Positions 1 to 22,837 of a stretch of 64,000 bases of DNA are shown here, one piece after another. Every line of letters begins with the position of its first letter. Position 1 is the stretch's first letter. Origin of the DNA: Deltaproteobacteria bacterium (GTDB lineage Bacteria; Myxococcota_A; UBA796; GCA-2862545); NCBI GenBank assembly GCA_006226595.1, contig SBGP01000069.1, positions 62,001 to 126,000 of the forward strand, written 5' to 3'. The notes beneath the pieces were generated by a model. The model searched no databases. It was given only the letters and a program-made list of their open reading frames with translations, and was not told the DNA's origin. The position numbers were made by a program, and so were the translations under genes.

Positions 1-1806
1 GAAGCCTGGCGCGCCGTCCGCCTCGACCTGCACCTCGACAAGCGCGAGATCCTCACCTGGTACCTCAACCGGGCGAGCTTCGGGCCGGGTACGGTCGGCA
101 TCCAGGCCGCAGCTCGCCAGACCTTCGACGAGGAGGCCCGCAGCCTGTCGCTCTCCGAAGCCGCACTCCTCGTCGGCGCCCTCCGCGCCCCTTCCCGCTT
201 GCATCCCTCCGTGGACCTCGATGCCGCGCGGACCGAGCGACACCGCGTGCTCGAGCGCATGCGGGTGACCGGGGTCATCGCCGCCGAGGAGGCCGAGCGC
301 GCGGAGGCCGAGCCCATCGAGCTCCGCCGGCCCGCATCTCCGGGAGACGCCCCGCACTTTGCCGCCCACCTGCTCGCCAGCCACCCCGACACACGTATTC
401 ACAGCACCCTGGACCTGCGGCTGCAGCGCGAGGTCGAGGCGGTGGTCGCCGAGCAGCTCGCGCGGCTCTCGGGGCGCTCGGTGGACCATGCCGCCGTGCT
501 CGTTGCCGAGCTCACCGACCGCGGTCCGGTGGTGCGCGCGTGGGTCGGCTCCGGCGACTGGACCGCCGACGACGGCGAGAACGACGGCGTGCGCACCCTG
601 CGCTCACCAGGAAGCGCCCTCAAGCCCTTTCTGTACGCGCTGGCCTTCGAGAAGGGCTGGTCCGCCAGCGACGTCCTCGCGGACCTGCCGGTGTCGTACA
701 CGACGAGCCACGGCTCGTGGTCGCCGCGAAACTACGGCGAGGACTTCGCCGGACCCGTGTCCCTGCGTACCGCGCTCGCGACCAGCGCGAACATTCCCGC
801 GGTTCGCCTGCTCGACGACCTCGGCGTCGCCACGCTCCAGGAACGCCTCGTCGCGCTCGGCCTGCCGCTCACCGAGCCCGCGAGCAGCTATGGGCTGGGC
901 CTGGCTCTCGGCGGTGGCGAGGTCACCCTCGAGCAGCTCGTCACCGCCTATGCCGCCCTGGCCGACGGCGGGCGCTGGCGTCCCCTGGCCCTCGCCGACG
1001 CTCCCGAGGTCGAGGCCGTGCCCGTCTACCCGCCGATGGCCGTGTGGCAGGTCGCGGACGTGCTCTCCGATCCGGTGGCCCGCGCCCCGGGCTTCGGCCG
1101 TGACTCGGTGCTCGCCCGCGCGTACCCCGCCGCCGCGAAGACCGGCACCTCCACGGGCTTTCGCGACAACTGGACCGCCGGGTTCACCGACCGCTGGGTA
1201 GTCGGCGTGTGGGTCGGCAACTTCGACGGCAGCCCGATGGGCGACGTGAGCGGCATCACTGGAGCCGGCCCGATCTGGGCGGCGACGATGGACCTGGCGA
1301 CCGGGGGCGAGAGCCGACCGTTCGATCCGCCGGGCGCCACGATCGAGCGGCAGACCTGCGCGCTCTCGGGCCTCACGCCGGGGGCTCACTGCCCACGCAC
1401 CCACGACCACCGCGTGCCCGCCGACAGTCCCGCGCCCGCGACCTGCGACTGGCACGACGCCTGCGGGGTGCGCTGGCCCGCGGAGTACCTGGGCTGGGCC
1501 ACCGAGCGTGGCTTGCTCGGCGCATGTCAGGGCGGCGGGGCCGGCGCGATCGCCTACCCGACGGACGGCGCGGTGCTCTACGTGGACCCCCGCCTGCCCG
1601 CCGCACACCAGCGCGTCCCTCTTCGCGCCGCGGCCCCGGCCGGCGCTCGCGCGACCTGGCACGTCGATGGCCGGGCGATCGCCGAGGTCGACGCCGAGAG
1701 CACGGCCCTGTGGACGCCCACCACCCGCGGCGAGCACGAGGTCAGCCTGCACCTGGATGGCGAGGAGGTCGGTCGGGTGCGGGTGACCGTGGGTGGCGTC
1801 GAGTAG
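1..1806 (+). CDS. pbpC: Penicillin-binding protein 1C, 5'-truncated by window edge
   Basis: Bifunctional peptidoglycan synthase of the PbpC family, acting at the outer face of the inner membrane. The reading frame is open from base 1, so the start and the catalytic part of the glycosyltransferase (GT51) domain lie outside the window. The first ~70 codons still match the end of GT51 (ILTWYLNRASFGPGT). The transpeptidase domain follows with SALK (catalytic Ser at codon 205, Lys 208), SAN, and KTG at codon 380. The last ~90 codons form a beta-sandwich like BiPBP_C, the usual PbpC tail. This is one of two pbpC genes in the window (the other is at 19327-21660). The next gene begins 31 bases downstream. 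Because PbpC is often encoded beside a bacterial alpha-2-macroglobulin, another such gene may lie upstream; this is inference only. Confidence 0.93.
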   Translation, partial: EAWRAVRLDLHLDKREILTWYLNRASFGPGTVGIQAAARQTFDEEARSLSLSEAALLVGALRAPSRLHPSVDLDAARTERHRVLERMRVTGVIAAEEAERAEAEPIELRRPASPGDAPHFAAHLLASHPDTRIHSTLDLRLQREVEAVVAEQLARLSGRSVDHAAVLVAELTDRGPVVRAWVGSGDWTADDGENDGVRTLRSPGSALKPFLYALAFEKGWSASDVLADLPVSYTTSHGSWSPRNYGEDFAGPVSLRTALATSANIPAVRLLDDLGVATLQERLVALGLPLTEPASSYGLGLALGGGEVTLEQLVTAYAALADGGRWRPLALADAPEVEAVPVYPPMAVWQVADVLSDPVARAPGFGRDSVLARAYPAAAKTGTSTGFRDNWTAGFTDRWVVGVWVGNFDGSPMGDVSGITGAGPIWAATMDLATGGESRPFDPPGATIERQTCALSGLTPGAHCPRTHDHRVPADSPAPATCDWHDACGVRWPAEYLGWATERGLLGACQGGGAGAIAYPTDGAVLYVDPRLPAAHQRVPLRAAAPAGARATWHVDGRAIAEVDAESTALWTPTTRGEHEVSLHLDGEEVGRVRVTVGGVE

Positions 1807-8561: not shown

Positions 8562-11500
8562 ATGCTGCTGCTGCTGTCCGCCATCGCCTGGACTGCCCCC
8601 ACCGTCACGCCCGCGACCGTGCCCGCCACCGGCCACCAGGAGGTCGAGGTCGAGGTCGAGCGCTTCGGCCGCTACGCGCTCGAGGTGAGCTCACCCCGCG
8701 GCACCGCGGTCCAGCTCGTCGACAAGATGACCGGCCCAGGCCCGTCCAGTGGCCGTCGCGGCGAACAGGACGGGCGCCTGGACGTGTTCCTCGAGCCAGG
8801 TCGCACCAAGCTCTGGCTCGAGTCGGCCAGCGACGGCACGGGAGAGACGACCGTGCGGGCCTCGCGCTTCGAGGAGCTTCAGGGACCGGATCTGCCGCTA
8901 CTCATCGAGCTCCGCGAGGAGGTCGGCACCCTCGGCGACCGCGAGCAGCGCAGCTGGTGGATCGACGTCCCCGAGCGTCGCCAGGTCGAGATCGAGGCCG
9001 CGGCCCGGCACCTCGGTGACCTGCGCCTGTGGCAGGACGGCACCTGGTTGCACCCGACCATGCCGAGCTGCGCCGCCTTCGAGCCCGAAGCCGGCATGCC
9101 GTGGACCCGCTGCCAGGTCTCGGTCCAGCTCGAGCCGGGCCTGTACCGGGTCACCGCGTACGGCGCGCCATCGGCGCCGTGGACCGAGGACAGCGACGAG
9201 CAGCCATTCTGGCTCCGCTACGGCCTGCCCGTGCTCGGGACGCCCAGCGAGCAGCGCATCACCCTCGACGACAAGGGCTATGCCCGGTTCCGCGTGCCCA
9301 GCGGCACGGCACGCCACGCGCGCCTGGCCCTGCCCGAGAACCTCGCCAACGCCGCCGTCGGCTTCGGTGGAACCACCTCCGGCTTCGCGCGGAGTCATCG
9401 CTGGGCCGAGATCACCGATGAGAGCCGCACCCCCGAGACCACGGTGTCCATGGGCGGCGCCGGCGAGATCATGGTGCGCGGCAAGCCCGGCCAGGTCGGC
9501 ACGCTACAGGTCCTGCCCGCCACGAGCTGGCGGCGCACACTGAAGTCTGGACGGCACGTGCTCACCTCGATCGTCGGCGCCCACGAGGCCGACGTGCTCG
9601 ACCCGACCGGCGTAGTCGCCCGCCAGCGCAGCGACGGCACCTGGGTCATCGCCGAGGACTACGCGCTCCAACTCGAGTCCGGCAAGCGCTACGAGCGTCA
9701 GTTCAACCTGCTCTCGTCCGCGGCCATGCTCGTGCGCCTGCCCAGCGACGGCGAGTGGAGCTTCGAGCTCGAGGGCGAGGCCGAGGTCATCGTCGAGCCG
9801 TTGATGATCACCAAGCCGCGCAACTACCGCTCACCCGAGTTCAAGGGCGGTTCCTACGTGGAGGACTTCTCGACCGGCCTCCACGTGGTCAGCCTGCGTC
9901 CGACGACCCCCGGCATCGTCACGCTGAAGATCGCGCCGAACACGTGGGGGCGCAGTGCGCGCAGCCTCATCGGCGGCGACCTGCCGCTGATGAAGACTCC
10001 TCGTCCCACCCTGCAGGACCTCGACTTCCGAGGGCAGAACGGCGACACGCTCATCGTGTTCGGCGCCCCTGACACGCTCACCGCCACGGATGTGCGCGAG
10101 CTGCCCGCCCCCCTCGAGCAGCCGCTGAGCCTGCTCCTGCATCCCGGCGAGACCGTGGAGCTTCGCGCCACCGTGCCCGAGCGCGGGGTGATCACCGCGA
10201 CCGGAGCCGACGGCGAGCCGGCCATGGTGCAGATCGAGGGCACCGGTTGGCAGGAGGTCGCGGAGGTGCGCCCGGGCGCCGAGTTCACGGTCGAGGTGAC
10301 CAACCCCGGCAAGACGCGGGCCCGCGTGTCGCTCGCGTGGACGCCGCACACGCACCTGCCGAGTACCGCGCCACCGCCGCTCACCCCGGCCCAGCTCGCG
10401 ACACTGCCCGACTTCGACGACATCCGCGCGGGCGCCCCCGTGTACCTCGACATGGAGCGGACCGAGCGCCGCACCTTCGACCTCGTCGTCGACGAGCCCG
10501 GTCTGTACGCAGTGCAGTCGACAGGTCTGCTCGCCACCCGCGGCGACATGCGCACCCGCACCCGCACGAGCTTCGCCGCTGGCAACCAGAACGGTGTGGG
10601 CCGCAACTTCCTGGTCGGTCGCTACCTGGGCTCCGGGCAGTACCAGCTCACGGTCACCGCGCAGGGTCGGAGCATGGGCCACCTCGGCGTGGAGCTCGCG
10701 AGGGCCCGCCAGGTCGACGGCGGACCGCTGCTCGACGGCGAGCCCGCCCGCATCACCCTTCCGGCCGGCGATGCCGTCGCCTACGGCCTCGACGTCCCCG
10801 CGGACGGCAACTACCGCATCGAGTCCGTGGGACTCGGACGGACGTTCACCTGCCGGATCGAGGATGCGGACGGCTACCCGATCACCGCCCCGGCCGAGCA
10901 GACCTGCAGCCAGCGGCTGTTCCTGCGGGATGGCCACTACTCGGTGGTCGTCGCCCCCGAGCGCACCGAGAGTCGCCGCCTCACCCGGGCCGTCCGCGAC
11001 GCCGATGTGCTCACCCGCGATGGACACGGCCCGCACGCGCTGCGCCTCGACACGCGCGAGACCCACACCTGGACCGAGCCCGCCGACAAGAGCGCGCCGC
11101 GTCCGCCGGACGAGTGGACCTTCACGCTGCCCGCCGACGCCTCGGTCACCGTGCACCTCGACGACGCCATGACCGGCACGCTCCACGGCGCCAGCGGGGA
11201 ACTCGGTCGCCTGCTGCCCGGCCAACCGTTCGAGCAGCTGCTGCCCGCGGGCGACTACCGCCTCGAGCTGCGGTCCGCGCGCCGCGACCACGGCCTGACC
11301 TACGGCGTGCGCGTGGCGACCTGGGAGCTGCTGTCGGGCATGGAGCGGCAGGTCGTCGCCCCCGGCGAGATCCCGGTCGGCGTCGGAGGAGACGGCGCAC
11401 TGACCTTGGCGAGCTTCGGCACCACCGACGTCCGCGCCACCCTTCGTGGGCCCGACGGCGAGGTCATCGCGAAGAGCGACGACCGGCCGGACGACTGGAA

Positions 11501-13559
11501 CTTCCGCATCGAGAGCCGTGTCGCCCCGGGCACCTACACCCTCGAGATCGCGCCGGTCGCCGGCGGCTCCGCGTCGACGCGGGTTCGCATGGTCCAGCCA
11601 GAGGAGGTCGTCGAGCCCGCCCTCACCAACGGCGAAGCGGTGACCGTGGTCCCAGGCGTGGCGGTCCACACCTTCCCCGTCCCGCGCAAGCCTGGTCACG
11701 TGGTGCTCGCCCACGCCACGAGCACCGAGAGCCTGGGCGTGTCCGTCGAGATCGCCACCGACACGGGCTGGCGGACGCTGGGCACCGCCACCGGACGCGA
11801 CGTCGCCTTGCCCGCCTGGCCCGGCGCCGGCGACATCCGAGTGCGGCTGTGGAGTCTCGATCCACGCGGTGCGGAGGCCACGCTCACCGTGACCACCAGC
11901 CGCGCCCAGAAGGTCGGCGAGCGCGCGCTGGCCAGTGGCGTGAAGGCCGGCGGCAAGGCCCCCCTGTCCGCGCTTCGACTCGCCGCCGACGCCGGAGTGT
12001 TCGCCCTCGATCGCCGTGAGCAGCTGTGGCAGTGCCGCGCCGACGGCGGCTGCAGCGAGGTACTCGACGCCCAGGTCTCCGCCGGGGCCGAGGGGCTGCT
12101 GCTCTTCGCGAGAGGCGCGCTCTCCGCGCACCGCATCGCCGTCGACACCGGCACCCCTCAGCTCGTGCAGATCCCCGGGACTGGCGACCGCGCGGTGGAC
12201 GTGACCATGCATCGCGGTCCCGTGGCGGTCATCGCCCGCGCTCGCGCCGGCGTACCGGTGCTCCGCCTGCACAACCAGGCCACCGATGAGGACCCGGAGT
12301 TCGGTGTGGTCGCCCTCGCCCCTCAGGCGAGCCTCGCCGTGGCCACCGGAGGCGCCCCCTACGCCCAGCTGCGCAGCGCTGACGGCCAGCCCCTCGAAGC
12401 CCGCGTGGCCGCGGTGCACTTCGCGGACCCCGAGGTCGACAAGCTCGACGCCAGCGGCCTGTTCGATGCCCACCTCGACCCGGTCACCGCCCGACGCCTC
12501 AAGCTCGGCAAGGGTCCGCACGAGATCCGCCTCACCCTCGACGCGGGCGTGGCCGTCGCGCTGATCGACGACCGCAAGATCGACCGCGTGCTGTGGGCCG
12601 ACGCGGACCCCCGCGCCTTCGCGGTGATCACCGATGCCGACGAGGCGTGGGTGCTCAACGTGGGCGGTGCAGTGGCTTCGGCTCGCGTGCGACGCAGCGA
12701 CGCCGCCCTGGCCGACCGCGTGGTCGATGCGGAGGCCACGAGCTGGTCCAGCCCCGACGCGGCGACCCGCGTGCTCACGGTGTCGCCTGGCGGGGAGATC
12801 GCGATCGCTGGCGGCGACGGCGTCCTGCTCACCAGCGAGGGTCGGCTCGTGCCCCTCGTCGGTCGCGTCTCCGCTGAGGGCGGAGGCACCGCCTGGATCG
12901 ACGCCCGCCCCGGCGTCGGCGCCGTGCACAAGCCGCTGGCGTCGGCCTCCGGAGGAAAGAAGGGCAAGGCCGTGGACGCGGGCACCGTGACCCTCGACGG
13001 GCCGGAGGCCCACCTGTCGCTCCAGGGCGAGGGACTCGTCGAGCTCGGCATCGGCGAGCCGGTGGCGGTGACCGTGCACGGAGACGAGCCCGAGACCGTG
13101 CTCCTTCCCGAGGGCGGCTGGGTTCGCCGGCTGTCCACCGGCGAGGTCGAGGTCTCGATTCGCGCCCTCGGCGGCCGCACCCTGTCGAGCACCGCCGAGC
13201 TGCGGGTCACCGCACCCACGCCGATCGGCGAGGGCATCGGTCCCGAGGTGCTCATCGGCCCCGGCGAAGCCCGCGCGTTCACCTTCGAGGTTCCCCGCGA
13301 CGGTCCCATCGGTCTCGGCGTGCGTGCCACCGCCGACCGGGTCGAGGCCACGCTGTTCGCGAACGGCACCGCTCTCGGCACCGGTCTCGTCCAGATGACC
13401 GAGGTCGAAGCCGGCCCGCACGTCCTCGTACTCCACCTCCCCAGCGACGCGGCTCCCCTCCGCGCTCGCCCCGTCCTCACCGGCATCGAGCCGCCCGACA
13501 CCGGGCCGCCGGAAGAGGTCGTCCGCCACTACCTCGAGCTCGCCTCGGAGGCCCCATGA
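8562..13559 (+). CDS. Giant exported beta-rich protein, first gene of macroglobulin-pbpC operon
   Basis: A 1665-residue protein with a short signal sequence (MLLLLSAIAWTAP) and no later membrane segment, so it is periplasmic or secreted. It is built from repeated beta-sandwich-like units. Several look like pre-peptidase C-terminal (PPC) modules, for example near residues 240, 630 (RRTFDLVVDEPGLYAVQSTG), 745 (YGLDVPADGNYRIESVGLG) and 845 (EWTFTLPADASVTVHLDD). Residues ~1135-1450 look more like a propeller (VFALDRREQLWQCRADGGC, ILTVSPGGE-like repeats). No protease or other catalytic motif was seen. Its stop overlaps the ATG of the macroglobulin gene (ATGA), and that gene overlaps pbpC in the same way, so the three are translationally coupled. 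It may be a structural or binding partner of the macroglobulin. No family recognised as a whole. Confidence 0.85.
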   Translation: MLLLLSAIAWTAPTVTPATVPATGHQEVEVEVERFGRYALEVSSPRGTAVQLVDKMTGPGPSSGRRGEQDGRLDVFLEPGRTKLWLESASDGTGETTVRASRFEELQGPDLPLLIELREEVGTLGDREQRSWWIDVPERRQVEIEAAARHLGDLRLWQDGTWLHPTMPSCAAFEPEAGMPWTRCQVSVQLEPGLYRVTAYGAPSAPWTEDSDEQPFWLRYGLPVLGTPSEQRITLDDKGYARFRVPSGTARHARLALPENLANAAVGFGGTTSGFARSHRWAEITDESRTPETTVSMGGAGEIMVRGKPGQVGTLQVLPATSWRRTLKSGRHVLTSIVGAHEADVLDPTGVVARQRSDGTWVIAEDYALQLESGKRYERQFNLLSSAAMLVRLPSDGEWSFELEGEAEVIVEPLMITKPRNYRSPEFKGGSYVEDFSTGLHVVSLRPTTPGIVTLKIAPNTWGRSARSLIGGDLPLMKTPRPTLQDLDFRGQNGDTLIVFGAPDTLTATDVRELPAPLEQPLSLLLHPGETVELRATVPERGVITATGADGEPAMVQIEGTGWQEVAEVRPGAEFTVEVTNPGKTRARVSLAWTPHTHLPSTAPPPLTPAQLATLPDFDDIRAGAPVYLDMERTERRTFDLVVDEPGLYAVQSTGLLATRGDMRTRTRTSFAAGNQNGVGRNFLVGRYLGSGQYQLTVTAQGRSMGHLGVELARARQVDGGPLLDGEPARITLPAGDAVAYGLDVPADGNYRIESVGLGRTFTCRIEDADGYPITAPAEQTCSQRLFLRDGHYSVVVAPERTESRRLTRAVRDADVLTRDGHGPHALRLDTRETHTWTEPADKSAPRPPDEWTFTLPADASVTVHLDDAMTGTLHGASGELGRLLPGQPFEQLLPAGDYRLELRSARRDHGLTYGVRVATWELLSGMERQVVAPGEIPVGVGGDGALTLASFGTTDVRATLRGPDGEVIAKSDDRPDDWNFRIESRVAPGTYTLEIAPVAGGSASTRVRMVQPEEVVEPALTNGEAVTVVPGVAVHTFPVPRKPGHVVLAHATSTESLGVSVEIATDTGWRTLGTATGRDVALPAWPGAGDIRVRLWSLDPRGAEATLTVTTSRAQKVGERALASGVKAGGKAPLSALRLAADAGVFALDRREQLWQCRADGGCSEVLDAQVSAGAEGLLLFARGALSAHRIAVDTGTPQLVQIPGTGDRAVDVTMHRGPVAVIARARAGVPVLRLHNQATDEDPEFGVVALAPQASLAVATGGAPYAQLRSADGQPLEARVAAVHFADPEVDKLDASGLFDAHLDPVTARRLKLGKGPHEIRLTLDAGVAVALIDDRKIDRVLWADADPRAFAVITDADEAWVLNVGGAVASARVRRSDAALADRVVDAEATSWSSPDAATRVLTVSPGGEIAIAGGDGVLLTSEGRLVPLVGRVSAEGGGTAWIDARPGVGAVHKPLASASGGKKGKAVDAGTVTLDGPEAHLSLQGEGLVELGIGEPVAVTVHGDEPETVLLPEGGWVRRLSTGEVEVSIRALGGRTLSSTAELRVTAPTPIGEGIGPEVLIGPGEARAFTFEVPRDGPIGLGVRATADRVEATLFANGTALGTGLVQMTEVEAGPHVLVLHLPSDAAPLRARPVLTGIEPPDTGPPEEVVRHYLELASEAP

Positions 13560-16500
13560 CCCGCCGTCCCCTTCCCCGCCTGCTGCTCGTTCCCCTGCTG
13601 CTGCTCGCGGTGGTCGCCGGCGCCACCGGCGGAAACGAGCTCCTCGACGCCATGCTCTCGCGTCCCGCCGCGGCCCGCGGCATCGTGGTCGTCCCCGACC
13701 GCTTCGTGCGGGCCTGGGACCCGATCACCGTGTTCTTCCCGTCGAACACGGGCAAGCCGGGGCCCGAAGACACGCCGGAGCGCTTCGTACGCATGGCTCC
13801 GGACCAACCGGGCGCGTGGACCTGGCTCGACGCCCAGACCCTCCAGTTCCGACCCGCCGAGCCCTGGCCGCCGCTGCAGACGGTGACCGTGTCCACCGAC
13901 GGCGAGATTGCCGAGCTCGCGACGCTGATGTCGCCGCCGAGCGCCTCCGAGCCCCGCAACGGTGCGAGCAACCTCGACCGCGTCGAGTCCATCGGGCTCA
14001 CCTTCCCGCACCCGGTGCCGGTCGAGGCCCTGGCGCGCATGATCACCCTCGACGTCACCGAGCTCTCTGGCCAAGGCGTGGTCACCCTCGACGCCGACGA
14101 CTTCGAGATCAAGGCGATGGACCGCCCCTCCGCGGACGCCCCGGCCCGCTACGCGCTGACCCTCGACCGCGCCATCGAGCTCGGCAAGCGGGTCACCCTG
14201 CGCTTCGGTCTCGCCCTGGGCGACAAGGGCGACGCGGTGTCCACCCTCTCGTTCAGCACCGCCGAGCCCTTCCGCGCGACCGCCGTGGGCTGCCCGTCGC
14301 GCACCTGGCCGGTGACCGCCGAAGGCACCCGCTACAGCGCGGATCAACCCCTGTCCTGCCGCGGAAAGGCCGAGCTGCTCGTGCAGTTCTCGGCGAGCCC
14401 CGGCGAGCTCGACCCGGTGCAGGCACGCAACCTGGTGCGCCTCGACCCCGCCGTGCCCGGCCTCGACATCGTCAAGCAGGGCGCTGGCCTCGCGATTCGC
14501 GGCGAGTTCGACCGCGACACGCTGTACGAGGTGACCCTCACCCCGGCCCTCATCGAAGACCACCGCGGGCGCGCGCTCGACATCCGCGGAGAGAGCACGC
14601 TGTACGTGCGTTTCGAGCCGCAGTCCGCGTACCTGTCGTGGTCGCAGGCGGGCATCGTCGAAGCCAAGGGCCCGAAGCGCATCGGGCTCCAGGGTCGCGG
14701 CCACGGGCGCGTGGACCTGCGCATCGTCCCGGTCGAGGCCGACAACCGCAACTTCTGGCCCCTGCACACGCCGATTGCCCTCGACGAGGAGCAGCGTCCC
14801 GCGGGCCCGGGCGAGGAGCCCGAGCCGTGGACGAGCCCGGAGAATGCGGGCAGGCACGACGTGAGCGCGCGCATCGCCACCCTGCCGATCACGGGCTGGT
14901 CGCGCATCGTCGACCTGCCCCTCGACCCCGATGGCAACGCGGCGAGCTTCGGGCTCGACGTCGAGTCCGCGCTGACCGAGCTCTCCGGCAAGCAGAAGCC
15001 CGGCCACTACCTCGTCGGCGTGCGCACGCTCGACGGCAGCACCAGCCGCGCCTGGCATCGCATCCAGGTCACCGACCTGGCCCTGTCGACCATCGAGTCC
15101 GCCGACCGCACCCGGTTCGTGGTCACCTCGCTGTCGACGGCGGCCCCGGTGAGCGGCGCGACCGTGTACCTCGAGGGCAGCCGCCGCAAGCACGGCGAGA
15201 CGACCCGCGAGTGGGCGGTGCTGTCCACTCACGTGACCGGCCCCGACGGCACCGTGGACTACACGGCGCCGGGCAGCAACGACGCGAGCTGGCGCCTGCT
15301 GCGCATCCGCGTGGTGAAGGGCGACGATCAGCTCGTGCTCGACCCGAGCCAGCCCCCCGAGCACTTCGCCGACAACCTGTGGCGCTCGAGCGGCGAAGGC
15401 TGGATGCAGTGGATGTACGGCGGTCTGTCGCACCGCGGCGAGTCCAGCGAGCTGCTCGGCCACGCCTTCCCCGAGCGTCCGATCTACCGTCCCGGCGAGA
15501 CCGTGTACCTCAAGGCCTTCCTGCGCGAGCGCTTCCAGGGGCACCTCAAGCCCCTCGGCGGCGAGGCCACCGTGGTGGTGCGCGCCCCCAACGGCAAGGA
15601 GACCCGCATCCAGACGACGCTCTCGGCGATGGGCGCGGTCGACGCGACCTTCGTTCCCGAGGAGGACGGCCCCACCGGCCACTACTCGGTGCAGGTGTTC
15701 CGAAAGGGCGGCGGCAACGCGTGGACGAACTTCCTGGTCGAGGCCTACCGCCTGCCGACCTTCGAGGTCGACCTGCATGGCGATGGCACCGTGCCGCTCG
15801 ACAAGCCCTTCGACGTGCGCATGACCGCGACCTACTACGCCGGCGGCCGCGTCGCCGAGCGACCGGTGCGGTGGCGGGTCACCCAGTACCCCTACGCGTG
15901 GAACCCGGACCCGATCGAGGGCTTCGTGTACTCCACCGACAGCCGCTTCGCGTCGCAGAGCCGCTTCCGCGCCTCCCCCGATGTGGTGCGCAGCGTGCTC
16001 ACCGATGCCGCCGGCGAGAGCGTCATCGACCTCGACCCGTCGCTCGAGCCCACCGCCCAGCCGCGCACCTACGTGGTCGAGGCCACCGTCACCGGCGCCG
16101 ACGACCAGACCGTGACCTCCACGACCCGCGTGCACGCGGTGCCCGCCTTCGCCCTCGGCCTCAAGGCGCCCCGCGTGGTCGAGAAGGCCAAGCGCTTCTC
16201 CGCCGAGGTCGTCGCCGTCGGCCCCGATGGCAAGCCCATCGCCGACCAGGAGCTCACCGTGCGCCTCGTCCAGCGTCAGTGGCACAGCCACCTGCAGGCG
16301 AGCGACTTCACCGAGGGCAGCGCCCGCTACGTGACCGACGTCGTCGACGAGACGCTCGAGACCCGTACGCTCACCAGTGGTGCGGCACCGGAGTCGCTGT
16401 CCTTCGACGTTCCCGCCGCCGGCGTGTACCTCGTCGAGGTCGAGGCCCAGGACGCGCTGGGACGCGGACAGCTCGTCACGGTCGACCTCTTCGTCGCCGG

Positions 16501-19330
16501 CGAGGAGCCGGTGAGCTGGGACCGCCCGAAGGCTGGCGTGTTCGAGGTCACCGCGGACAAGGGCCTGTACGAGCCCGGCGACGAGGCGACACTGCTCGTG
16601 CAGAGCCCCTACCAGAGCGCCCGCGCGCTGATCATCGTCGAGACGCCGACGGGCAACCGCTACGAGTGGGTGAACGTGAAGGGCGGAAAGGCCCGGTTCA
16701 AGCTCCCCATCGAGACCGGCTGGGTGCCGCGCCTGCCCGTGCACACCGTGCTGTACCGCGGTCGCAAGGACAACGCGCCGCGCACGGGCAACATGGACCT
16801 CGGCAAGCCGGTGACCGTGGCGAACACGACCTGGCTCAAGGTCGCGCCCGTCGAGAACCAGATCGACGTGCGCGTCGAGCTTCCCGACCAGGCCCTGCCC
16901 GGCGAGGAAGTGCCCGTCACCGTGCGCCTCGCCGACCCACGCGGCAACCCGCTCTCCGGCGAGGTCACCCTGTGGCTGGTCGACCGCGCCGTGCTCGCCC
17001 TCGGCGAGGAGCAGCGCCTCGACCCCCTCCCCGACTTCATCCGCGACCGCCGCAGCCGCCTGCTCGTCCACGACACCCGCAACCTCACGGTCGGGGCGAT
17101 TCCCTACGCGGAGATGCCCGGCGGTGACGGGGCCGAGTCCGAGGACCGCATGGCCGCGGAGAGCGCGCTCGATGCCGCCACCGTGCGACGCAACTTCCAG
17201 CCCGTGCCCTACTACGAGCCGACGCTGAAGGTCGGGGCGAGCGGCAAGGTCACCGTGAACGTGAAGTTGCCCGACAACCTCACCGTGTTCGCAGTGCGCG
17301 CCAAGGCGATCAGCGGGCCCGAGCGCTTCGGCGTGGGCACGGCGGACATCCGCGTGCGCCTGCCGCTCGTCGCGCAGCCCGCCCTGCCCCGCTTCGTGCG
17401 CGCCGGCGACGCCTTCGTCGCCACGGCCATCGGCCGCGTGGTCGAGGGACCCGGCGGGGCCGGAAGTGCGGAGATCCGCGCCGAGGGCCTCGACGTTCAG
17501 GGCGAGCCCACTCGCGCGGTCTCGTGGAGCACGGTCACCGCCGAGCGCATCGGCTTCGACGTGCGCACGCCAACGCCCGCGTACGGGGAAGATGGGCGCA
17601 TGGAGCGAGAGGACGTGGAGATCGCGATGGGCGTGCGCCGCGACGCCGACGGCGCGGCCGATGCCTTCGCGCTGACCTTGCCCCTGCTCCCGGACCGCGA
17701 GCGCAAGGTCGTGCGCGAGAGCCACGAGCTCACCGCCGGAGAGTCGCTGACCATCGAGGCCCTTCCCGAGCCCGCCCGCGACGGCACCGTGCAGCGCCTG
17801 GTCGTGATCTCCGACGAGCCCGCACTCGTGCGCATGGTCGCCGCCGCCGACTTCCTGCGCCTGGCCCCGGTGGGCTCCGCCGAGCAGCGCATCTCCCGCG
17901 CTCGCGCCTACCTGGCCCTCTCCCGAGCCCGGACCGATGCCGCCCTGCGCGCGTCCCAGGAAGAGCTGGACGCGGTGGTCCGCGACACCCTGGCCTTCCT
18001 GCCCGAGGTCGTCGACGGCGGAAACCGCATCAGCCAGTGGCCCGGCTACTCGGGCTCCGTCGCCCTCACCGCATGGAGCGTGCACTTCCTGATCGAGGCG
18101 CGCGAGGCGGGCTACGCCATCGACGAGGCCCTGCTCTCGCAACTGGCGGGCACGCTGCGGGCGGCCCTGCGCAGCGACTACAGCCACTTCATCGACGGCG
18201 AGAAGTGGATGGAGCGCACGCTGGCGCTCGAGGCGCTCACCGCGACCGGCACCGTCGAGGATGCCTACCTCAGCGAGCTGGCTCGCAACGCGCGCTACCT
18301 CGACCACGAGGCCCTCGCGAGCATCGCGCTCGCCGCGCACCGCGCCGGTCGCAGCGGCCAGGCGGTGGCGACCTCGATGGGCAAGGAGCTCGAGAGCGGC
18401 ATCATCACGCGGCTGTACGAGGGGCGCGAGGTGTACGGCGGACTCACGCAGCGCCTGGACTACCGCAGCCCGCTGATCCTGCCCTCCGAGACCCGCACCC
18501 TCGCGAAGATGGCCCGCGCCATCGGCCGTACCGACGCGGACAGCAAGCGACTCGACCTCGTCATCGACGCGCTGGTCACGCTCGGCCGCGAAGACGGCTG
18601 GGGAAACACCCACGCAAACGCCGCGGCGCTGTTTGCCCTCGCCGAGCGCATCGAGCGCGCCGACGGCCCGGGCGGCTCGGTCGAGATCACGAGCGAGGGC
18701 GACAAGCGCAGCGCGTCGCTGTCCAAGGACGAGCCCGTGCTCGTGCGCAGCTTCACGAGTACCGAGTCCATCGACATCCGCGCGAAGAGCGGCGGGCCGC
18801 TGCTCGTGCTCGTCACCTCGCGCTACGTGCCGGCGGCCCCGGGCGCGGAGGCCGCACCGGAAGCGAGCGGGTTCGTGGTCCACCGCGAGGCGCGTCCGCT
18901 CACCGCACAGGGCACCCTCGGCGATCTCGTCGACCTCGGCGACGGGGGCGTCAAGATCGGGCTGAGCACGGGCGGCATCGTCGAAGAGCACGTGCAGATC
19001 GTCGTCCCCGAGAAGCGACACTACGTCGCGGTCGAGGTGCCCTTCGCCGCGGGCGTGGAGCTGCTCAACCCGGCACTCGCCACCGCCCCGCCCGAGGCGA
19101 GGCCGTCCAAGGGAGACACCGCGCGTCCGGCCTACACCGCGCGCCTCGACGACCGGGTCGTTTACTTCTTCGAGACCCTCGACAAGGGCACCTGGGACTT
19201 CTACGTGCGCACCCGGGCCACCGCCGAGGGCAGCTTCTCGCAGCCGCCGGCGACCGCGCGCATGCTGTACAGCCCGGACATCCGTGGCCAGAGCGCCGGT
19301 GCCCGCATCGACGTGGCGGCGGCCCCGTGA
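13556..19330 (+). CDS. Bacterial alpha-2-macroglobulin-like protein without thioester Cys
   Basis: A 1924-residue periplasmic protein with an N-terminal hydrophobic signal (PRLLLVPLLLLAVVAGATGG). Alpha-2-macroglobulins are large traps that entangle proteases. Landmarks in order: N-terminal MG domains; the MG segment FPERPIYRPGETVYLKAFL near residue 640; the A2M segment VTVNVKLPDNLTVFAVRAKA near 1230; and an alpha-helical thioester-type domain from ~1420 (TSGSVALTAWSVHFL-like helices, GWGNTHANAAALFAL at ~1680). The thioester motif, normally CxEQ, reads GSAEQRISRARAYLAL with Ser1441 (codon TCC) in place of Cys. This form resembles the thioester-less bacterial subtype (YfaS-like) rather than the covalent one. 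Coupled by 4-base overlaps to the genes on both sides, including pbpC, the classical partner, which would repair wall breaches that let proteases in. Confidence 0.92.
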   Translation: MTRRPLPRLLLVPLLLLAVVAGATGGNELLDAMLSRPAAARGIVVVPDRFVRAWDPITVFFPSNTGKPGPEDTPERFVRMAPDQPGAWTWLDAQTLQFRPAEPWPPLQTVTVSTDGEIAELATLMSPPSASEPRNGASNLDRVESIGLTFPHPVPVEALARMITLDVTELSGQGVVTLDADDFEIKAMDRPSADAPARYALTLDRAIELGKRVTLRFGLALGDKGDAVSTLSFSTAEPFRATAVGCPSRTWPVTAEGTRYSADQPLSCRGKAELLVQFSASPGELDPVQARNLVRLDPAVPGLDIVKQGAGLAIRGEFDRDTLYEVTLTPALIEDHRGRALDIRGESTLYVRFEPQSAYLSWSQAGIVEAKGPKRIGLQGRGHGRVDLRIVPVEADNRNFWPLHTPIALDEEQRPAGPGEEPEPWTSPENAGRHDVSARIATLPITGWSRIVDLPLDPDGNAASFGLDVESALTELSGKQKPGHYLVGVRTLDGSTSRAWHRIQVTDLALSTIESADRTRFVVTSLSTAAPVSGATVYLEGSRRKHGETTREWAVLSTHVTGPDGTVDYTAPGSNDASWRLLRIRVVKGDDQLVLDPSQPPEHFADNLWRSSGEGWMQWMYGGLSHRGESSELLGHAFPERPIYRPGETVYLKAFLRERFQGHLKPLGGEATVVVRAPNGKETRIQTTLSAMGAVDATFVPEEDGPTGHYSVQVFRKGGGNAWTNFLVEAYRLPTFEVDLHGDGTVPLDKPFDVRMTATYYAGGRVAERPVRWRVTQYPYAWNPDPIEGFVYSTDSRFASQSRFRASPDVVRSVLTDAAGESVIDLDPSLEPTAQPRTYVVEATVTGADDQTVTSTTRVHAVPAFALGLKAPRVVEKAKRFSAEVVAVGPDGKPIADQELTVRLVQRQWHSHLQASDFTEGSARYVTDVVDETLETRTLTSGAAPESLSFDVPAAGVYLVEVEAQDALGRGQLVTVDLFVAGEEPVSWDRPKAGVFEVTADKGLYEPGDEATLLVQSPYQSARALIIVETPTGNRYEWVNVKGGKARFKLPIETGWVPRLPVHTVLYRGRKDNAPRTGNMDLGKPVTVANTTWLKVAPVENQIDVRVELPDQALPGEEVPVTVRLADPRGNPLSGEVTLWLVDRAVLALGEEQRLDPLPDFIRDRRSRLLVHDTRNLTVGAIPYAEMPGGDGAESEDRMAAESALDAATVRRNFQPVPYYEPTLKVGASGKVTVNVKLPDNLTVFAVRAKAISGPERFGVGTADIRVRLPLVAQPALPRFVRAGDAFVATAIGRVVEGPGGAGSAEIRAEGLDVQGEPTRAVSWSTVTAERIGFDVRTPTPAYGEDGRMEREDVEIAMGVRRDADGAADAFALTLPLLPDRERKVVRESHELTAGESLTIEALPEPARDGTVQRLVVISDEPALVRMVAAADFLRLAPVGSAEQRISRARAYLALSRARTDAALRASQEELDAVVRDTLAFLPEVVDGGNRISQWPGYSGSVALTAWSVHFLIEAREAGYAIDEALLSQLAGTLRAALRSDYSHFIDGEKWMERTLALEALTATGTVEDAYLSELARNARYLDHEALASIALAAHRAGRSGQAVATSMGKELESGIITRLYEGREVYGGLTQRLDYRSPLILPSETRTLAKMARAIGRTDADSKRLDLVIDALVTLGREDGWGNTHANAAALFALAERIERADGPGGSVEITSEGDKRSASLSKDEPVLVRSFTSTESIDIRAKSGGPLLVLVTSRYVPAAPGAEAAPEASGFVVHREARPLTAQGTLGDLVDLGDGGVKIGLSTGGIVEEHVQIVVPEKRHYVAVEVPFAAGVELLNPALATAPPEARPSKGDTARPAYTARLDDRVVYFFETLDKGTWDFYVRTRATAEGSFSQPPATARMLYSPDIRGQSAGARIDVAAAP

Positions 19331-21660
19331 TCCGCCGGGCGCTTGGACTCGCGAGCCTCGCGGGGAGCCTGGTGCTCCTCGGGCTGCTCGCGCGCGCGTG
19401 GAGCCTCTCCGCGCTGACCGAGCCCGTGCCCACCCTGCTGCTCCTCGATCGGCACGGGGCCTTCCTCGGCGAGGTCGGGACCGGCGAGTCCGAGCCGGTG
19501 GGCTTCTGGCCCGCCACCGACGCCCACGGCGCCCTGCCCGAGCGGGTGGTCGCCGCGACGCTGGCCATCGAGGACCGGCGCTTCGGAGAGCACCCCGGGG
19601 TCGATCCGGTCGCCGTCGCCCGCGCGGTCGGCCAGAACCTCGGCTCCGGCGAGCGCGTGTCCGGGGCCTCCACCATTGCCATGCAGCTTGCGCGGCTGCA
19701 GGATCCGGGTCCGCGCACCTGGCCGAAGAAGCTCGTCGAGGCGACGACCGCTCTCGTGCTCGTCGACCGCCACGGCGACGAGGCCGTGCTCGCGCAGTAC
19801 CTCAAGCTCGCGCCCTACGGAAACAACCTCCACGGCGTGGCCTACGCGGCCCGACGCTACTTCGACAAACCCCTGGACGACCTGTCGTGGGCGGAGAGCG
19901 CGTACCTGGCTGCCCTGCCGCAGGCACCGGGGCTCATGAACCCGTACGACCGCGACGGTCGCGACCGCGGTGTGGCACGCGCCCGCCGCATCCTCGACCT
20001 GCTCGCCGCCGACGGTCAGCTGGCTGCCGAGGACCGCGCCCGCGCCGACGTCGAGCTCGATGCGCTCGTGTTCCACCACCGTCCCGAGCGCCCCGCCTCG
20101 ACACTACACGCGGTGATGCGCCTCGAGGAGCGACTGCGGTCCGCCGACGAGCGTCACCGCTACGCCCAGGACCCGCGCGTCTTCACCACCCTCGACCTGC
20201 AGCTGCAGACCGAACTCCAGGCCCGGCTGCGGGAACAGATCCGCGCGTGGGAGGCCCGAGGTGCCGGCAACGCGGCGCTCATGGTGGTCGAGCTCGACAC
20301 CGGAGCCGTGCGCGCGGCGGTGGGCTCCACCGACTACTTCGACGAGCGCTTCTCGGGCTCGATGGACTTCACCCGTACGCCGCGCAGCCCGGGCTCGACC
20401 CTCAAGCCCTTCCTTTACGCGGAGGCGCTGGAGCGCGGTCTCATCGACCCGGTGCGGCCGATCGACGATCTGCAGCGAGGCCCGGACGGCATCGGCAACG
20501 CCGACAGCGACTTCCTCGGCCCGCTGCTCCCGCGCCAGGCGCTCGCGAACTCGCGGAACGTGCCGGCGGTCGAGATCCTGCGCCGCATCGGCCTCGATCA
20601 GGGCTACGGCCTGTACCGCGACCTGGGCCTGCACGAGGGCGAGCACGACGGCGCCCACTACGGCTTCTCGCTCGCGCTCGGCGGTATGCCGACGACGCTG
20701 ACCCAGCTCGTCCAGGCGAGCACCGGACTCGCCACCGACGGCGTTGCTCGGCGCCTGGTGTGGACCGACCGCGAGCCCCACGAGGTCGTCGGCAAGCGCT
20801 TCGACGAGGCCACCGCCCGCCGCGTGAGCAGCTGGCTCTCCGACCCGATGGCCCGCCTGCCGACCTTCCCGCGCATGGGACACAGCGAGCTGCCATTCCC
20901 CGCGGCGATCAAGACCGGCACCTCTCCGGACTTCCGCGATGCGTGGGCCATCGCGTGGACCGAGGAATACGCCGTCGGCGTGTGGGTCGGACACCCGGAC
21001 TGGCGCCCGATGCAGCAGCTCTCTGGCTACCGGGCTGGGGCGAGCCTCGTGCACGACGTGCTGCGCACGCTGCATCCCGTCGAGTCCGAGGGCCTCTCCG
21101 ACGTGGGGCGGCTCGGACCCGAGGGCGAGCGGCTGGTCCGCGTGTGTCCCCTCTCCGGCGGCAGGGCGACCGCCGCCTGCCCGGGACAGACGCAGGAGTG
21201 GCAGCCGGTCGAGCCAGAGCCATGCCCCTGGCACGTGCTCGCTGACGTGGACGTGCGCACGGGCGGCCTGGCCACCGAGTCAACGCCCCCCGGGGCGCGC
21301 CGTACGCGTGGACTCGCCGACCTCCCCGCGCGCTACGCGGCGTGGGCCGAGCGCGAGGGCGTCGAGACACTGCCCCGCGCCTGGGTCGACGACACGCCGC
21401 AGGTCGAGGTCCTGAGCCCCCGAGACGGCGACCACCTGCTCCGCGATCCAGAGGCGCCGGACGGCGCGGGCACCGTGCTGCTCGCCGCCGCCGTGGACCC
21501 GCCCGGAAGCCAGGTCGTGTGGTACGTCGACGGCGAGCCGTGGAAGGTCGTCGACGCCCCGTACACGGCCCGCTGGCCCCTCGAGCCCGGCGAGCACGTA
21601 CTCGAGGCGCGGCTGCCCTTCGACGCCCGCGGCGCGAAGGTACGCATCACCGCGCGCTGA
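19327..21660 (+). CDS. pbpC: Penicillin-binding protein 1C
   Basis: A complete 777-residue bifunctional peptidoglycan synthase. The GTG start at 19327 overlaps the macroglobulin stop (GTGA). Residues ~8-28 are the signal anchor. The GT51 glycosyltransferase has IEDRRFGEHPGVD (catalytic Glu82) and ASTIAMQLARL (~114-123). The transpeptidase has STLK with Ser357, SRN at 409-411 and KTG at 529-531. The ~100 C-terminal residues are a BiPBP_C-like beta domain (VEVLSPRDGDHLL to the end). It polymerises glycan and cross-links peptide at the inner-membrane surface. Pairing with an alpha-2-macroglobulin is the well-known bacterial arrangement. The convergent membrane-protein gene begins directly after the stop. 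Confidence 0.95.
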   Translation: MIRRALGLASLAGSLVLLGLLARAWSLSALTEPVPTLLLLDRHGAFLGEVGTGESEPVGFWPATDAHGALPERVVAATLAIEDRRFGEHPGVDPVAVARAVGQNLGSGERVSGASTIAMQLARLQDPGPRTWPKKLVEATTALVLVDRHGDEAVLAQYLKLAPYGNNLHGVAYAARRYFDKPLDDLSWAESAYLAALPQAPGLMNPYDRDGRDRGVARARRILDLLAADGQLAAEDRARADVELDALVFHHRPERPASTLHAVMRLEERLRSADERHRYAQDPRVFTTLDLQLQTELQARLREQIRAWEARGAGNAALMVVELDTGAVRAAVGSTDYFDERFSGSMDFTRTPRSPGSTLKPFLYAEALERGLIDPVRPIDDLQRGPDGIGNADSDFLGPLLPRQALANSRNVPAVEILRRIGLDQGYGLYRDLGLHEGEHDGAHYGFSLALGGMPTTLTQLVQASTGLATDGVARRLVWTDREPHEVVGKRFDEATARRVSSWLSDPMARLPTFPRMGHSELPFPAAIKTGTSPDFRDAWAIAWTEEYAVGVWVGHPDWRPMQQLSGYRAGASLVHDVLRTLHPVESEGLSDVGRLGPEGERLVRVCPLSGGRATAACPGQTQEWQPVEPEPCPWHVLADVDVRTGGLATESTPPGARRTRGLADLPARYAAWAEREGVETLPRAWVDDTPQVEVLSPRDGDHLLRDPEAPDGAGTVLLAAAVDPPGSQVVWYVDGEPWKVVDAPYTARWPLEPGEHVLEARLPFDARGAKVRITAR

Positions 21661-22734
21661 TCACCAGGTGCCGCTGAGCAACCGCACGTCGGCGCCCGCG
21701 AGTCCGTCGCGGTCGATGCGCGGCGACACCGTGGGCATGTGCACGACCACGCTGCTACGGTCGCCCTCGAGCCGCGCGAGGGTCGCGCCGTCGTAGTCCC
21801 GAGTCAGGTAGGTGCCCAGGCCCAGGCCGACCGCGGACAGGCCACCGACCACCGAGAAGCCAACCTGCGGCGACACCTCGGAGCCCAACGCGAACAGCGC
21901 GAGGCCGAGACCGCCGGTCAGCGCGCCGGCGTAGCCCGAGAGGTTGATCAGGTTCATGCGGCGGCGGCTGATGTCCACCTGGAACGCGGTGACGCCCATG
22001 GCGAGCATGCCGATGCCGGCACCCGCGGCGATGTTCGGCACCGCGCGCCCCTGGGTCAGCAGCAGGGTCAGCGCTCCATAGCCCGCACCCCAGGACAGGC
22101 CGCTGCGCACCATGCTCGCGTCGCCGGAGTTCGGCGGCAGCACGATGGCGCCGACGGCACCGCCGACCATGCCGGTCGCGAAGCCGCCAGCGAGGATGAG
22201 CAGGTTGTCGCGCGGCTCGGAGGGACGCAGGACCTCGAGGGCCACGGCCGCACCGAGGGTTCCCGCGAGCTCGCCCGTGTACACAGTCATCGCCTGTCCT
22301 TCGGTGATGCCGTAGCGGCTGCCGATCAGCAGCGGAGCACCGATGCCGACCCCGAGACCAAGTAGACCTCCGGTGAGCGGGGCCGCCGCGCTGCCGGGGC
22401 TCACCGCACCGCCGAGGGTGCCGAAGAACACGGGCCCGAGCAGCGCCTGGGACACCACGAGCTCGACGGTCCCGTCCTCCTGGGAGCCGGACACGCCGTC
22501 GGCGCAGACCTTGGCGACCATCGACGTGGTCTGGCGGAGATCCGCTGCCTTGCCGGCGTACTCGGTGGTCGCGAAGCTCGACTCCACCTCGCGGAGCACC
22601 TCGCAGGCTTCGCCGTACTGGCGGGCGTCCACGAGGTCGAGGGCTACCCGGTAGCGGGCCGCCGCCTCGGCGGTCTGTTCGTCGAGTGCAGCGGGGTCGT
22701 GCGCCATCGCGAGCGCCGTGAGCAATACCAGCAT
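21661..22734 (-). CDS. Polytopic membrane protein with N-terminal exported helical region
   Basis: A 357-residue protein. ATG 22734 was chosen because GGAGGAACC precedes it; an earlier in-frame start at 22782 lacks a site. The N terminus looks like a cleavable signal (MLVLLTALAMAHD). About 75 helical, charged residues follow (RYRVALDLVDARQYGEACEVL resembles a TPR helix pair). The rest is Gly/Ala-rich with roughly eight hydrophobic segments in regular alternation, as in small repeated transmembrane hairpins. The C-terminal ~45 residues are polar. No family recognised. It is convergent with pbpC and divergent from the HMG-CoA synthase gene. Confidence 0.7.
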   Translation of the reverse strand: MLVLLTALAMAHDPAALDEQTAEAAARYRVALDLVDARQYGEACEVLREVESSFATTEYAGKAADLRQTTSMVAKVCADGVSGSQEDGTVELVVSQALLGPVFFGTLGGAVSPGSAAAPLTGGLLGLGVGIGAPLLIGSRYGITEGQAMTVYTGELAGTLGAAVALEVLRPSEPRDNLLILAGGFATGMVGGAVGAIVLPPNSGDASMVRSGLSWGAGYGALTLLLTQGRAVPNIAAGAGIGMLAMGVTAFQVDISRRRMNLINLSGYAGALTGGLGLALFALGSEVSPQVGFSVVGGLSAVGLGLGTYLTRDYDGATLARLEGDRSSVVVHMPTVSPRIDRDGLAGADVRLLSGTW

Positions 22735-22837
22735 GGTTCCTCCAGGGCCCCCCTTTTGCCGTGGTGGCGAGCCGTCCGCCACTATCGGTCACTGCGTGTC
22801 ACCACGGTATCCACGAGTTCTGCACACGAGTACACTA

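Follow-up and report, generated by a model that had tools for sequence, protein, structure and literature searches.

Three coupled genes in the 64,000-nucleotide stretch of DNA analyzed here (hereinafter the window), coding for a giant exported protein (gene 1), an alpha-2-macroglobulin (A2M) of a distinct clade (gene 2) and a cognate PbpC (gene 3), are co-inherited in mutually distant families of a single phylum, as well as on megaplasmids of Rhizobium. We propose, with a probability of roughly 0.6, that their products constitute a conserved envelope system of three components. This would be a third kind of bacterial A2M system, next to Type I, in which an A2M is paired with PBP1C, and Type II, encoded by the mag/yfa operon of six genes. 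By analogy, its role is probably one of envelope protection or defence. Bacterial A2Ms have so far been described as two types, to which this system would add a third clade with a large obligate partner and a cognate PBP1C, common to cultivable Rhizobium strains and to a lineage represented in this analysis mostly by draft genomes, and it bears on the question of what the partners of bacterial A2Ms do. In the literature searched, which took in few subscription papers, there was no description of such a third gene with A2M and pbpC.

Organization of the three-gene unit

The unit and the features discussed below map to the window as follows:

8562-13559, plus strand: gene 1, ATG start, 1665 residues; exported protein, an array of PPC-like beta modules
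11022-11321, plus strand: best-modelled beta module of gene 1, residues ~821-920, resembling PPC and collagen-binding domains
13556-13559, plus strand: ATGA overlap by which genes 1 and 2 are coupled, read from the sequence
13556-19330, plus strand: gene 2, ATG start, 1924 residues; A2M of a distinct clade
17876-17887, plus strand: SAEQ (gene 2 residues 1441-1444) where the thioester motif CxEQ is expected, from the sequence and alignment
19327-19330, plus strand: GTGA overlap by which genes 2 and 3 are coupled, read from the sequence
19327-21660, plus strand: gene 3, GTG start, 777 residues; PbpC, a PBP1C-type glycosyltransferase/transpeptidase with a BiPBP_C domain

The three lengths and the two overlaps given in the preliminary description of this DNA proved exact when the open reading frames at 8562-21660 were read again. 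The next gene after pbpC (21661-22782) is convergent on the minus strand, and pbpC is therefore the last gene of the unit. The overlap of 4 bases between genes 1 and 2 is also present in several other genomes with the three-gene order, and, since 8 further genomes and 7 plasmids show the same order, the arrangement is not due to chance. A glutaredoxin gene lying 5' of gene 1 was excluded from the unit, since it is not found upstream of gene 1 in the genome G001. A second, canonical A2M with a CVEQ motif is encoded just upstream of the window (contig positions 57430-61563), with its own PbpC at window positions 1-1788; this pair overlaps the start of the window about 6.8 kb ahead of the three-gene unit, and in the sister species a canonical A2M/PbpC pair likewise shares a contig with the three-gene cassette.

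Phyletic distribution and gene order

Gene 1 is present in 11 of 58 relatives (31-55% identity), 13 of 71 genomes of the class and 15 of 284 genomes of the phylum, five of the last coming from a distant family; a sixteenth match to the gene 1 profile in the phylum, a weak one in G101 (28 bits), was rejected as a false positive. A close A2M was recovered in exactly the same 11 relatives (over 1500 bits) and in none of the 47 others, the next A2M scoring 288 bits, and again in exactly those 15 genomes of the phylum and in none of the remaining 269 (at most 324 bits). There is thus a wide gap between the full-length cognate A2Ms, at 1500 bits or more, and the rest, at 324 or less. On a naive count, agreement of this kind would arise by chance with a probability below 1e-11 for the 58 relatives and below 1e-24 for the 284 genomes, relatedness making the true figures less extreme, and a mirror-tree correlation of r 0.95 is confounded by shared species history. 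Among 72,556 plasmids, 7 Rhizobium megaplasmids carry a nearly full-length gene 1 (27-29% identity), and the same 7 carry the close A2M (at least 1074 bits, against 234 for the next). Gene 1 was never found without an A2M of the cognate clade in the phylum genomes and plasmids searched; the deep profile searches covered these sets, and the all-species short-pattern scan reaches close relatives only.

The A2M gene is immediately preceded by gene 1 in 16 of 18 genomes (G054 and G203 being broken up among contigs) and in each of the 7 plasmids, i.e. in 23 of 25 cases; in G010 and G020 gene 1 is found elsewhere in the genome. The cognate PbpC likewise occurs in 16 of the 18 genomes and all 7 plasmids (23 of 25), the two gaps being G009 and G284, metagenome-assembled genomes that are 77% and 75% complete, and the full three-gene order is kept in 9 of the 18 genomes and in every plasmid. 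The recurrent placement of gene 1 before macroglobulin and pbpC, which the preliminary description had proposed as a check, is borne out by these counts; it had also named scattered homologs of gene 1, or its assignment to a familiar unrelated family, as outcomes that would count against such a system, and we observed neither. Its suggestion that gene 1 is a third component of an envelope defence complex is partly supported. In the Rhizobium plasmids the three genes stand as a unit of their own, with at least four different sets of neighbours (flanks of loci L128-L134), which is consistent with its having moved among them as a transferred cassette.

The A2M clade and its thioester

The gene 2 protein contains the domains bMG10 (E 9.5e-24), the bait region A2M_BRD (1.3e-19), MG2 (3.6e-16), A2M (8e-12) and bMG6 (1.5e-8), with the stretch around the bait well conserved. 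Together with the other cognate A2Ms it carries a Sec-type signal, and none of them has a lipobox, whereas E. coli YfhM has LAGC. In the tree a single clade (support 1.0) holds the cognate A2Ms, separate from the canonical A2Ms of the phylum, from YfhM, and from the E. coli YfaS piece. The last, the largest open piece of a K-12 pseudogene, has a long branch to itself that lies outside the cognate clade.

The initial labelling of this macroglobulin as thioester-less is right for the window copy, with its SAEQ at residue 1441. In the phylum the cysteine is lost in 14 of 17 cognate A2Ms, CTEQ being kept in only three (G031, G006 and G058); it is also lost in 5 of 5 Rhizobium cognate A2Ms aligned, and every unlinked A2M aligned from the phylum keeps CxEQ. 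Given that the CTEQ-retaining cases are nested on the tree, the thioester cysteine was most likely lost several times within the clade. The three CTEQ members still have gene 1, which indicates that the latter is not simply a replacement of the thioester, and the idea of an exact replacement was rejected. The presence of natural thioester-plus and thioester-minus members in one system makes the proposition that a partner protein takes the place of covalent capture directly testable. The decay of the motif is graded: several thioester-less members keep EQ, with the cysteine alone replaced (STEQ, NVEQ, SAEQ), and others are without the whole motif and its tyrosine pocket.

The cognate PbpC

Gene 3 displays the PBP1C architecture of Transgly, Transpeptidase and BiPBP_C domains, its score against TIGR02073 (438.4 bits) being below the NCBIfam cut-off of 494.2. 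The motifs of the glycosyltransferase (ED..F) and of the transpeptidase (SxxK, SxN, KTG) are intact in it and in all cognate copies aligned, and its N-terminal transmembrane segment is the only evident membrane anchor among the three members. Identity to gene 3 is 42-55% among the cognate PbpCs, also counting those of Rhizobium, and reaches 74% in the sister species, compared with 35% for the canonical PbpC of that species. The cognate copies score at least 650 bits, against at most 367 bits in genomes without gene 1. In 6 of the 18 genomes (G037, G033, G020, G024, G006 and G058) the pbpC gene sits away from the A2M gene; the possibility that PbpC is absent where it is not adjacent was rejected, as it is encoded elsewhere in these genomes (51-53% identity, over 650 bits). 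PbpC is hence the looser member, and its retention when unlinked, with none above 367 bits where gene 1 is lacking, argues that it belongs to the system. Judged from sequence, therefore, PbpC is part of the system, its gene being less tightly tied than those of gene 1 and the A2M are to each other.

Gene 1 is an array of beta modules

As the preliminary description had held, gene 1 matches no recognized family as a whole: domain searches retrieved no family in Pfam or NCBIfam, and a search of PDB with the gene 1 profile gave nothing significant. A profile comparison with A2Ms reached at most 3.6% probability, and gene 1 was thus rejected as an A2M-like protein. Self-comparison of the profile revealed internal repeats at offsets near 100, 200 and 300 residues with up to 97% probability (reversed controls reach at most 20%), indicating an array of roughly 100-residue beta modules; from these repeats, modules fall roughly near residues 12-110, 114-200, 380-460, 567-720, 723-815, 890-1030 and 1520-1630. 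The N-terminus of the window copy resembles a signal, more clearly so in several of the homologs; neither in it nor in them was a transmembrane anchor consistently found.

AlphaFold models of the two halves of the protein, run with only two sequences, are all-beta and mostly of low confidence (mean pLDDT 43 and 46); because of this, whole-model Foldseek matches were disregarded and a single confident module was used, at residues ~821-920, with pLDDT 68-82 over most of residues 850-900. Within this mostly low-confidence model, the module best matches the PPC/collagen-binding domains of collagenases, namely 5sv5 (Z 10.6, rmsd 2.4 over 92 residues) and 1nqd (Z 10.4), and it also matches the periplasmic lysozyme inhibitor PliG (Z 9.1). 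Weak PPC sequence matches in several relatives of gene 1 (best E 7.9e-5) agree with the structural match. PF04151 (PPC) itself scores 14.4 bits on gene 1, against a gathering score of 25.9, and stays below the Pfam cut-off in every member scanned, the best relative reaching 23.9 bits. Of the two resemblances suggested at the outset, the PPC-like segments thus gain moderate support from the structure of one module and the weak sequence matches, short of the PF04151 cut-off, and the propeller-like segments gain none, no propeller domain having been found (region 1110-1520 is poorly modelled). At least one module would then share the beta-sandwich fold of the PPC and collagenase collagen-binding domains; unlike the proteins that bear those domains, gene 1 is a large array with no enzyme attached.

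In all 7 Rhizobium plasmids the gene 1 protein has an LprI-type segment at its N-terminus, with PF07007 (LprI) detected at E 7.3e-8 in the one such protein scanned over its full length. The domain, shared with LprI proteins, is absent from the window protein and from those other members of the phylum that were scanned. The annotation of LprI is that of a lysozyme inhibitor, a function that is disputed: ScwA of Salmonella, which has an LprI domain, confers no lysozyme resistance and acts on or regulates the levels of a murein hydrolase (PMC7933661). Since LprI is accordingly not always a lysozyme inhibitor, the fusion points to wall metabolism or wall attack, and not surely to lysozyme.

Relationship to known A2M systems and possible function

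The unit has features of both known types. With Type I (E. coli yfhM-pbpC, Salmonella Sa-A2M) it shares the A2M domain set with its bait region and the order A2M then PBP1C, in an operon with a GTGA-coupled pbpC. It differs in that 1) an additional gene of 1665 residues stands in front; 2) the window A2M, with SAEQ and no lipobox, belongs to a separate clade in which the thioester cysteine is mostly lost; and 3) a canonical A2M/PbpC pair is present separately in the same genome. As in Type II (P. aeruginosa magABCDEF, E. coli yfaAPQST), a thioester-less A2M that keeps its bait region and has no CxEQ is encoded with a non-A2M accessory protein, yet three members of the clade keep CTEQ. Further, PbpC is present, the six-gene order is missing, and the cognate A2M apparently does not group with YfaS, itself represented by a K-12 pseudogene piece on a long branch. 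Gene 1 was rejected as a Mag/Yfa accessory relative, its profile having no match to YfaA, YfaT or YfaQ.

For the YfhM-type A2M and PBP1C, joint protease trapping and murein repair have been proposed (PMC4498604, PMC5764988), a logic that we extend to the three-gene unit. Although it lacks a thioester, MagD still traps a protease by which it is cleaved; it forms complexes with its operon partners, and depends on them for its stability and location (PMC5764988). By analogy, all three proteins would act in the periplasm, where the giant PPC-like gene 1 protein most likely binds the A2M as an obligate scaffold or docking partner. It could take over capture or positioning for a mostly thioester-less protease trap, and perhaps also bind wall-attacking hydrolases, as hinted by the LprI fusion in Rhizobium. 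The membrane-anchored PbpC, with its intact active sites, would repair murein at the site of attack. A bolder version, which we offer only tentatively, is that gene 1 founds a new class of multi-module inhibitors or scaffolds binding both the A2M and wall-attacking enzymes, and forms with the A2M and PbpC a mobile "immune" complex of the envelope, directed at proteases and murein hydrolases from rivals, predators or hosts, the partner having made the thioester dispensable and allowed its loss several times.

Another reading, somewhat unlikely in our estimate, is that the three genes are a functional unit for building the wall or surface, with gene 1 as a structural or adhesive scaffold, the A2M in a non-trapping structural or regulatory role, and PbpC making specialised peptidoglycan. 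The widespread decay of the thioester in the clade would fit this, as would the adhesive and substrate-binding roles of PPC-like modules (PPC and collagen-binding domains of secreted collagenases) and the regulation of a murein hydrolase, instead of inhibition of lysozyme, by the LprI-bearing ScwA (PMC7933661). Against it, the bait-region, A2M and bMG10 domains are kept and the surroundings of the bait conserved, the thioester-less Type II MagD is able to trap proteases (PMC5764988), and a patchy, plasmid-borne distribution is more in keeping with an accessory trait of defence than with a structural role in the core.

That gene 1 and the A2M are a dedicated pair, with PbpC a mere frequent neighbour left from an ancestral Type I A2M-PBP1C operon, is suggested by the six genomes in which PbpC is encoded away from the A2M and by G010, where gene 1 has been displaced and PbpC remains beside the A2M. 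We consider this improbable, since the cognate PbpC is kept even where displaced, is found in no genome without gene 1, and is nearer to gene 3 (42-55%) than is the canonical PbpC of the same genus (35%). The relatedness of the sampled genomes, by which the counts are not independent, and the four or more flanking contexts on Rhizobium plasmids might be taken to mean that co-occurrence reflects only shared ancestry or the recent transfer of a neutral cluster, with no functional linkage. This is very improbable, as gene 1 copies with differences at 60-70% of their positions are still accompanied by the A2M, and as both are retained in the same genome when unlinked (G010 and G020), which neutrality does not predict. 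The three-component envelope system hence remains our preferred reading.

Displaced and disrupted copies

In G020 (L016), where all three genes are unlinked, the gene 1 frame is broken by one TAG near aligned codon 709, reflecting either decay or a sequencing error. Beside the displaced gene 1 of G010 there are a partial second copy of its C-terminus and a transposase-like ORF (L022, 5132-6730 and 8569-9411), which suggests that the cassette of this genome was split by rearrangement. On the plasmid of Rhizobium sp. C104 (L134, 13443-27391) all three genes appear frameshifted, with intact copies present in other strains.
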